From Dendronalium phyllosphericum CENA369 (GTDB lineage Bacteria; Cyanobacteriota; Cyanobacteriia; Cyanobacteriales; Nostocaceae), in contig NZ_JAECZA010000016.1 of the NCBI RefSeq assembly GCF_016056275.1, positions 1-64,000 of the forward strand: a stretch of 64,000 nucleotides of DNA, written 5' to 3'. Shown here in pieces: positions 32,481-57,702 of this stretch. The notes under the pieces were generated by a model. That model saw nothing but the letters and a program-made list of their open reading frames with translations, had not been told where the DNA came from and did not search any database. Positions within the stretch are counted from its first letter, which is position 1; each line of letters begins with the position of its first letter. A program made the position numbers and the translations under genes.

Positions 32481-32580
32481 TTTTAGTCATTAGTCAATGG
32501 TCAGTAGTCAGTAGTTAATAATAAACAACTGACTCTTGTACAGACAAAGGTTAATCGCGTCTCAACCAAACTGAATAACT

Positions 32581-32730
32581 AAAGCCGGAGACAGCAGGTG
32601 CTAATAGCTTAATATCCTGCCTAGGTTGAAACTCTAATTGCTTGAATGCCACCTGTTAAGGTGTAATTATTTTCGCATGAAGAGGCATCGCTAAACCCCG
32701 GCTAACATAGCTGGGGTTTGTTGTTTTTGG
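32581..32730 (+). ncRNA. L10-type ribosomal leader with attenuator upstream of rplJ
   Basis: The non-coding DNA between rplA and rplJ holds a structured leader. Bases near 32594-32624 can pair (agcaggtgc with gcctaggtt-side segments, and caggt/acctg-like segments). It ends in a strong terminator hairpin at 32693-32719, where aaaccccggct pairs with agctggggttt, followed by gttgttttt to 32726. rplJ begins 64 bases later. This is the layout of the L10(L12)4-responsive leader known in bacteria, here probably controlling rplJL by attenuation. The detailed fold is my inference. Confidence 0.75.
32693..32726 (+). terminator. Attenuator hairpin before rplJ
   Basis: An 11-base stem (aaaccccggct / agctggggttt) with a five-base loop is followed by tgttgttttt. 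Lying between the rplA end and the rplJ ribosome-binding site, it should stop part of the transcripts. Confidence 0.85.
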
Positions 32731-32790
32731 TTGGTTAGAACAGAGGGCATAAGTAGGGATGATAATTTTGCCCTTGGAGGTGAAATAAGT

Positions 32791-33961: not shown

Positions 33962-33986
33962 GGAGCCTAAGTCAGGCTCCTTTTTT
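33962..33986 (+). terminator. Rho-independent terminator after rplL
   Basis: A seven-base GC-rich stem, ggagcct / aggctcc, with a five-base loop is followed by six T residues. It closes the ribosomal-protein operon. Confidence 0.92.
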
Positions 33987-33988
33987 AC

Positions 33989-34183
33989 CTCCCCTTCGGG
34001 GCGGGAGTGGGGAGTAGGGAGTAGGGAGTAGGGGAAGAAATTAGCCCCAAAAAAGGTTAAAGCCTCGCCCCTTGTGGCGCGAAAAATCCTTGTATTGCAC
34101 AAGATAGGTTGAAACCCCGCCCCGAAGGGGGCGGCTTAGTTTCCCTACTCCCCAATCCCTACTCCCTACTCCCTACTCCCTTT
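33989..34183. repeat. Long palindromic element, copy 1 (core conserved with 57506-57637)
   Basis: The left end has ccccttcggggcggg and an arm of gggagtagggagtagg repeats. The core includes agcctcgccccttgtgg. The right part has ccccgccccgaaggggg and an arm of ccctactccctactccc repeats. The arms are complementary, so a long hairpin can form. A second copy near 57.5 kb has the same core but different, still complementary, arms. Confidence 0.8.
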
Positions 34184-34192
34184 TATTTTCTC

Positions 34193-57404: not shown

Positions 57405-57702
57405 TTGTTAATCTGTCTCAATCAATCTCTTACAAAAAAGCAATTTATTTTGTGGAGATAATTGTCAGGGCGAACGGCTGTTCGCCCCTACTTCATTTAC
57501 TCCAAGCCCCTTCGGGGCGGGTGTAGGGTGTGGGGTGTTGGGTGTAGGGGAAGAACTAGCCCCGAAGTAAGGTTTAAAGCCTCGCCCCTTGTGGGTGGCT
57601 TAATTTCCCTACACCCCACACCCTATCCCCTACACCCTGTTCATCTGAAAAACGCTGTATCTATTGGCGATGAAGGTTTTTTCCTTGGACTGCCTGGAAA
57701 TC
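57405..57702. repeat. Palindromic repeats: gggcgaac hairpin and long element copy 2
   Basis: Bases 57468-57487 form a perfect hairpin, gggcgaac-ggct-gttcgccc. Bases 57506-57637 are the second copy of the long palindromic element. It shares ccccttcggggcggg and gcctcgccccttgtgg with the copy at 33989-34183. Here its arms are gtgtagggtgtggggtg and the complement cctacaccccacaccc instead of gggagtaggg units. Confidence 0.8.

Follow-up and report, generated by a model that had tools for sequence, protein, structure and literature searches.

Two palindromic elements lie between convergent open reading frames

The window, which is the whole stretch of DNA analysed (64,000 nt of contig NZ_JAECZA010000016.1 of Dendronalium phyllosphericum CENA369), carries two palindromic copies of a short element, each situated between convergent open reading frames. 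As judged by reading, the frames next to copy 1 are rplL and a kinase-like gene, and those next to copy 2 are a long plus-strand frame and a WD40-type gene. The original prediction had placed the copies at 33989–34183 and 57506–57637. Both are present there, and we redrew their limits using the ends of other copies:

33984–33988, plus strand: TTTAC target motif kept 5' of copy 1 (sequence; rule from the empty sites of other copies)
33989–34186, plus strand: element copy 1, family A (other copies in the genome are nearly identical and have like ends)
33991–34001, plus strand: left-end hairpin CCCC-TTC-GGGG of copy 1 (sequence, folding)
34003–34034, plus strand: left arm of copy 1, GGGAGTN heptamers (sequence, unit analysis)
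34035–34142, plus strand: conserved core of copy 1, core-1 (core comparisons)
34143–34180, plus strand: right arm of copy 1, TACTCCC heptamers complementary to the left arm (sequence, folding)
34181–34186, plus strand: right end TTTTAT of copy 1 (equal to the end of L001, whose junction is fixed by empty sites)
57496–57500, plus strand: TTTAC target motif 5' of copy 2 (sequence)
57501–57644, plus strand: element copy 2, with core-1, GGGTGTA arms and a shortened inner core (sequence, genome search)
57507–57517, plus strand: left-end hairpin CCCC-TTC-GGGG of copy 2, preceded by AAG (sequence, folding)
57519–57550, plus strand: left arm of copy 2, GGGTGTN heptamers (sequence, unit analysis)
57551–57606, plus strand: shortened core of copy 2 (sequence, core comparison)
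57607–57637, plus strand: right arm of copy 2, TACACCC heptamers (sequence, folding)
57638–57644, plus strand: right end TGTTCAT of copy 2, closing with TTCAT (equal to the end of L041, whose junction is fixed by empty sites)

The arms of both copies are built of 7-nt units: GGGAGTG or GGGAGTA units stand opposite TACTCCC units in copy 1, and GGGTGTA-type units opposite TACACCC units in copy 2. About 50 nt of the inner core are missing from copy 2. The match between the arms is not exact. The right arm of copy 1 has one unit more than those of its close sisters, such as L001 and L002, and its left arm is equal to theirs. Folded as single-stranded DNA, both copies were far more stable than their dinucleotide shuffles (z −6.1 for copy 1 and −5.5 for copy 2, with 0/200 shuffles as good in each case). 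The window also contains a ribosomal protein L10 leader (Rfam RF00557) at 32567–32731, upstream of genes that we read as rplJ-rplL.

The element is dispersed in the genome in several families

The source genome is an 8.38 Mb draft in 338 contigs. It was searched with copy 1, copy 2, the core pattern, and family-B and family-C queries, and the output examined comprised stretches L001–L050 and L052–L083. Among the fetched matches we counted by eye 79 places with a full or partial element, both window copies included, although several of these lie at contig ends and may be two halves of one copy. Such repeats break draft assemblies, as the copies stopping at contig ends illustrate. The possibility, named in the original prediction as one that would speak against it, that the genome holds only the two copies is thus removed. 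The places fell into family A, with GGGAGTA arms (23/79), other GGGTGTA-armed places, most of them A-like in the core or the right part and including copy 2 (13/79), family B, with a CCCC-GTT-GGGG left hairpin and mostly GGGTGTA arms (36/79), and family C, with AGTGCTG arms (7/79). Stretches with heptamers only or unrelated to the element (L029, L031, L036, L038 and L080–L083) were left out of the count.

The element is about 110–230 nt long and has no gene inside. Read from the left, it starts beyond a T(T/G)AC target with a short leader, which is CAAG in family B. The CCCC-NNN-GGGG hairpin follows, then the left arm with some 1 to 6 heptamers, the branched core and the right arm. The right end is TTTAT, TTCAT, TTCAA, or TGAC a few bases past the arm. 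Family C is without the CCCC hairpin, and its left end begins within the AGTGCTG array. The arms are complementary throughout the genome, as the original prediction required, with the reservation that an arm is lost in L017 and L018.

Several copies are altered. One arm or much of the core is lost in L017, L018, L063 and L067, and short foreign segments lie in or beside the elements of L027, L028, L030, L040, L053, L075 and L078; in L027, L028 and L030 the segment sits at one shared point, after GCCTC of the core. These segments are perhaps nested small dispersed repeats. L025 and L026, which looked like the ends of a parent transposon next to transposase genes, are judged from the open reading frames to be copies that other insertion sequences have cut.

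Insertion occurred 3' of TTTAC without target duplication at three sites

Three insertions have empty counterparts in relatives (L001, L041 and L104), and all three are placed exactly 3' of TTTAC, without target duplication, and have TTTAT or TTCAT as their right end. They come from 14 sites probed in 25 relatives; among the matches listed, only the L001 and L041/L104 sites were resolved. In L001, a transposase-like gene, IS630-like by reading, is split by a family-A element with ATTTTAC on one side and AGG on the other. In four sequences from three relatives, the empty site has ATTTTAC running straight into AG or AA. In L041, an internally shortened hybrid element lies 3' of TTTAC, and at the empty sites of five relatives (L088–L091 and L103) CTTAC, TTTAC, TTTAC, CTGAC and GTTAC, respectively, abut the right flank; in a sixth relative (L106) the motif is not clear. 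A seventh relative (L104) has at this site a family-C element 3' of the next TTTAC, ending in TTCAT. The element of copy 1 is absent from its site in five relatives, at a divergence too great to place the junction.

The same left motif recurs at other copies. T[TGC]AC was found within 9 nt in 43/47 de-duplicated left ends of this genome (TTAC 22, TGAC 18, TCAC 3), as compared with 6.8% of random 9-mers, and in 19/29 left ends of other genomes, a set that includes pattern hits lacking an element. A single right-end pattern fitted 39/92 place rows, partial and heptamer-only rows being included in the 92 (TTTAT 17, TTCAT 13, TTCAA 7, TTTAC 2); the TGAC right ends of family B were read from the sequences. 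AAG stands directly 5' of the hairpin in 26/26 family-B left ends of this genome and in 12/16 of other genomes, but precedes a TTC- or TTT-loop hairpin in only 4/21 of this genome's copies. Among the three bases before the hairpin in 76 left ends, AAG occurred 49 times and TAG once, the latter within CTAG. No separate right-end hairpin was present in nine folded elements; their right arm pairs with the left arm.

Arm types are exchanged between families on a shared core

Four types of arm unit occur on one homologous core, GGGAGTA, GGGTGTA, GGGAACA and AGTGCTG, each opposite its own complement. Across this and other genomes, the units read GGGAGTN, GGGTGTN, GGGAANA and AGTGCTG, and are tandem heptamers in the sense used to define STRR arrays; octamer-like units appeared in two cases (L126, L133). 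Homology of the cores was assessed by local alignment scores, given here with the highest score of 300 shuffles in brackets. The family A core scored 71 (25) and 73 (24) with GGGAACA-type cores, 92 (28) with a GGGTGTA hybrid core, and 48 (26) with the family C core of L049. With three other family C cores it scored 21 (23), 15 (22) and 22 (20), and those three scored 33–67 with L049 (22–27 at maximum by shuffling). This homology across arm types indicates that the arm type was exchanged under a shared core; single copies drift freely.

The original prediction held that both arms of a copy had changed together, apparently by selection for a long hairpin or by a copying mechanism that enforces it. 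Arm pairing was scored in those 57 of the 79 left-end rows, taken from this genome and others, that had a clear unit type and 230 nt of following sequence (the 79 rows are a set distinct from the 79 places); some of the 57 are without a right arm, and family C was left out. The score of own left with own right arms was 15.29, as compared with 12.98 when partners were permuted across all types (sd 0.43; 0/5000 as high). Within types, where non-redundant left arms were used, own arms paired no better than permuted ones: GGGTGTN (n = 39) scored 15.03 versus 15.01, with 2399/5000 permutations at least as high, GGGAGTN (n = 5) scored 17.5 versus 18.8 (4515/5000 as high), and GGGAANA (n = 6) scored 10.2 versus 11.0 (4224/5000 as high). 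Thus, complementarity is a trait of the family and not the outcome of ongoing repair in each copy. Moreover, the numbers of left and right units in GGGTGTN copies were not correlated (rho 0.06, p 0.71). In L114, the left arm is of GGGTGTA type and the right arm mainly of GGGAGTA type. Between the two arms, the unit's fourth base agrees in 47/49 copies, which are not independent events; of the two discordant copies, L114 is a real mismatch, and L028 probably owes its discordance only to nested inserts that push the right arm beyond the counted stretch. The joint change of arms therefore stands between families, where arm types differ as pairs, but not within a type. The hairpin has remained long under changing arm sequences, but the within-type pairing, the uncorrelated unit numbers and L114 argue against the idea that a copying mechanism works on each copy. 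Clearly, arms were exchanged between families, whereas arm copying inside each copy is not supported.

Compensatory changes, which the original prediction proposed to look for in the arms, were found by a covariation test in the core of family B. RNAalifold was run on a choice of 24 family-B elements, some from this genome and some from others, and gives a consensus with 25 pairs. In it, 93.8% of cells are paired versus 41–58% for slid partners, although part of this excess is expected, since the structure was derived from that alignment. Double changes occurred at 11 pairs versus a shuffled mean of 6.7, and the covariation score was 0.295 versus 0.189 for shuffled alignments (0/500 as high). 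The reverse strand folds into a different and more stable consensus. Wobble pairs favoured the plus strand, but on a structure predicted on that strand, and as the reverse consensus is better, we do not claim an acting strand. The elements had no match in Rfam 15 at gathering score. At a lax threshold, applied to 14 of 50 loci, the only matches were to the microRNA-precursor family MIR2670 in L001 and L002, with E values of 0.024 and 0.026 and 28 bits against a cut-off of 117, and a known RNA family was therefore rejected as an identity of the element.

The richest carrier is nearly free of Y1 transposase

The exact left-hairpin pattern has 72 occurrences in this genome, where family A copies mostly count twice, and is found in 44/145 genomes of the taxonomic family, this one included. 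The next richest genomes have 11 and 10 occurrences, and some hits outside this genome are not elements (e.g., L117 and L125). The Y1 transposase profile PF01797 matched 141/145 family genomes; in this genome, the match is no more than a remnant in a 68-residue frame at C154 (E 7.5e-5). Since 140 of the other 144 have a match, a remnant-only state is unusual in the family. By profile search, we found in this draft genome this one fragment and no intact Y1 transposase, as well as no match to the TnpB domain PF07282 or to Y2 (IS91) transposase; control genomes gave no Y2 match either, so that the Y2 result carries no weight. Thus, where the copies are most numerous, the transposase expected to move them is all but missing. 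Either the transposase was lost after the spread of the element, or it is absent from the draft, or another enzyme does the work.

Y1 loci of relatives were inspected by eye over 260 nt to either side. The 20 loci, 19 of which belong to genomes with the hairpin pattern, revealed no autonomous element with these ends. Seven true multi-copy Y1 sets were available in relatives. Those of genome G006 and one of G043 end in GTTCAA in all three copies, and that of G036 ends in GTTCA, with A next in 2/3 copies. The G112 copies all start after TGAC, their right end not being defined, and the sets of G113 and G098 and the other set of G043 have right ends that differ from GTTCA(A).

A plasmid of Nostoc sp. 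UHCC 0870 carries an element, and two plasmids of Nostoc sp. C057 carry identical elements with common flanks, which, being shared, indicate that these are not two insertions. The family-B query matched 12 Nostoc plasmid records, five over at least 80% of the query; five of the 12 are rated conjugative. The copy-1 query matched four cyanobacterial plasmid records, two of them over only 40 nt, and no phage record. The exact core pattern was abandoned as too short, as it occurred in at least 115 stretches of named genomes, many of them non-cyanobacterial.

The elements resemble non-autonomous IS200/IS605 elements

In our judgement, the palindromes are rather likely to be non-autonomous IS200/IS605-like mobile elements that move, or have moved, by the Y1 single-strand route. 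In this mechanism, a Y1 (HUH) transposase would excise one folded strand, which would then be pasted 3' of a TTAC/TGAC-type tetranucleotide. The long arm–arm helix would bring both cleavage sites together, replacing the separate right-end hairpin of IS200/IS605. Each family would have received its arm unit type from its founder and passed it on by transposition, with drift of the old copies afterwards, and the transposase would have been supplied by an element since lost from this genome. As described in part of PMC5934647, IS608 inserts 3' of TTAC, has TCAA as its right cleavage site, and has the left guide AAAG 5' of its hairpin. As in IS200/IS605 (IS608, ISDra2), our element stands 3' of a tetranucleotide kept on its left, without duplication, has a related motif at its right end, and has a left-end hairpin, preceded at its foot by AAG in family B. 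Unlike those insertion sequences, it is without transposase, tnpB and an own right-end hairpin, its arms pair with one another and are made of heptamers, and an intact transposase was not found in the draft genome of its host. A related but less probable reading is that these are an undescribed class of single-strand elements of Nostocaceae, in which one long heptamer helix joins the ends, arm types switch in pairs, and a mobiliser other than Y1 works in this genome; we regard it as having some, although limited, plausibility.

Template switching in the hairpin at replication could, without any selection, continually correct the arms of each copy against one another. Part of PMC8794818 describes such switching as a way to create or mend stems, and it would agree with arm types that differ as pairs between families. 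However, GGGTGTN own arms that pair like shuffled ones, uncorrelated unit numbers and the mismatched arm types of L114 make it unlikely as a continuing process; a rare founder event by template switching is possible. Spread through an RNA intermediate and reverse transcription, with the conserved fold being that of an RNA, could account for the covarying core structure, and would sit well with the failure to find an intact Y1 or a TnpB domain match in this genome and with the short foreign segments inside several copies. Such spread was reportedly proposed by Elhai in 2008 for small dispersed repeats of Nostoc. Still, a fixed T(T/G)AC on the left with a related motif on the right and no duplication is unexpected for target-primed insertion, and no Rfam family matched above its cut-off, so that we give this route little credence. 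A classical MITE, moved by a DDE transposase acting through terminal inverted repeats, would likewise be short, non-coding, multi-copy and bounded by inverted arms, and for Anabaena 90, part of PMC3542288 reports type II MITEs that have no matching insertion sequences, but target duplication occurred in 0/3 sites with an empty counterpart, the inverted arms start inside the ends, and their sequence varies among families under one insertion rule, which makes a MITE very improbable. An immobile regulatory or terminator hairpin, maintained by the host and selected for its fold, would suit the position of both window copies between convergent frames and their extremely stable fold, but near-identical copies in unrelated sites, one inside a transposase-like gene, and the absence of the element from comparable orthologous sites in relatives leave it with hardly any likelihood.

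The reading as IS200/IS605-like elements also has to be set against other dispersed hairpins and repeats. Part of PMC6006769 describes REP/REPIN sequences as short dispersed hairpins tied to Y1 enzymes, TnpA-REP (RAYT). In the element, by contrast, GT[AG]G is absent from the foot of the hairpin (the 76 left ends tallied above), the length is about 110–230 nt, the branched core is conserved and the insertion motif is fixed. Its arms of G-rich or AGTGCTG heptamers are like the STRR and G-rich heptamer repeats of Nostoc, but here the arrays are inverted complementary pairs flanking a core; for PCC 7120, a section of PMC4692102 gives only few paired repeats. Like the small dispersed repeats (SDR) of Nostoc and the type II MITEs of Anabaena 90, as judged from their descriptions, the element is short, non-coding, structured and dispersed in cyanobacteria. 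SDR of Nostoc are 21–27 nt long and thus differ from it in length, but the short inserts in some copies may be SDR-like. Heptamer arms paired around one core were not described in the literature searched, a set without Elhai 2008, and within that scope the anatomy is new. The element connects a mobile hairpin, inserting by a rule like that of IS200/IS605, with the G-rich heptamer repeats known for long from heterocystous cyanobacteria. If the reading as an undescribed class of single-strand elements is true, the heptamer repeats of cyanobacteria would in part be a working component of mobile hairpins. One core with four complementary arm types forms a natural series, by which it can be tested whether a single-strand transposase requires a given arm sequence, pairing alone, or neither of them.

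Heptamer blocks occur in other dispersed repeats

Solo AGTGCTG arrays were considered as decayed family C elements, but 20 further arrays, inspected by eye, had no family-C right end within 110 nt, and the idea was rejected for these. Many of them are part of other dispersed repeats, among which the heptamer block seems to be a common module. L178, L181, L183, L184, L186, L188, L189 and L192 represent one such repeat with four or five AGTGCTG units, which mostly follow TATAGCAA or a variant and are succeeded by AGTAA, in several cases up to GTGGCTACGGCTATA or a variant. In L179, L180, L182 and L190, the AGTGCTG array after ACTTGAA is joined to AGTAAAAA(T/C)ACTAGTCTCTAG, and in L179 and L180 a ATTTTCATGCATGGCGATGAAAA stretch comes after that repeat. 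The reverse complement of the AGTAAAAA(T/C)ACTAGTCTCTAG repeat adjoins the family-A element of L016 in its left flank. The reversed control pattern GGGCGGGGYTKCCCC was abundant in genomes G106, G080, G042, G039 and G154, in up to 141 places on one strand, and is probably another high-copy repeat.
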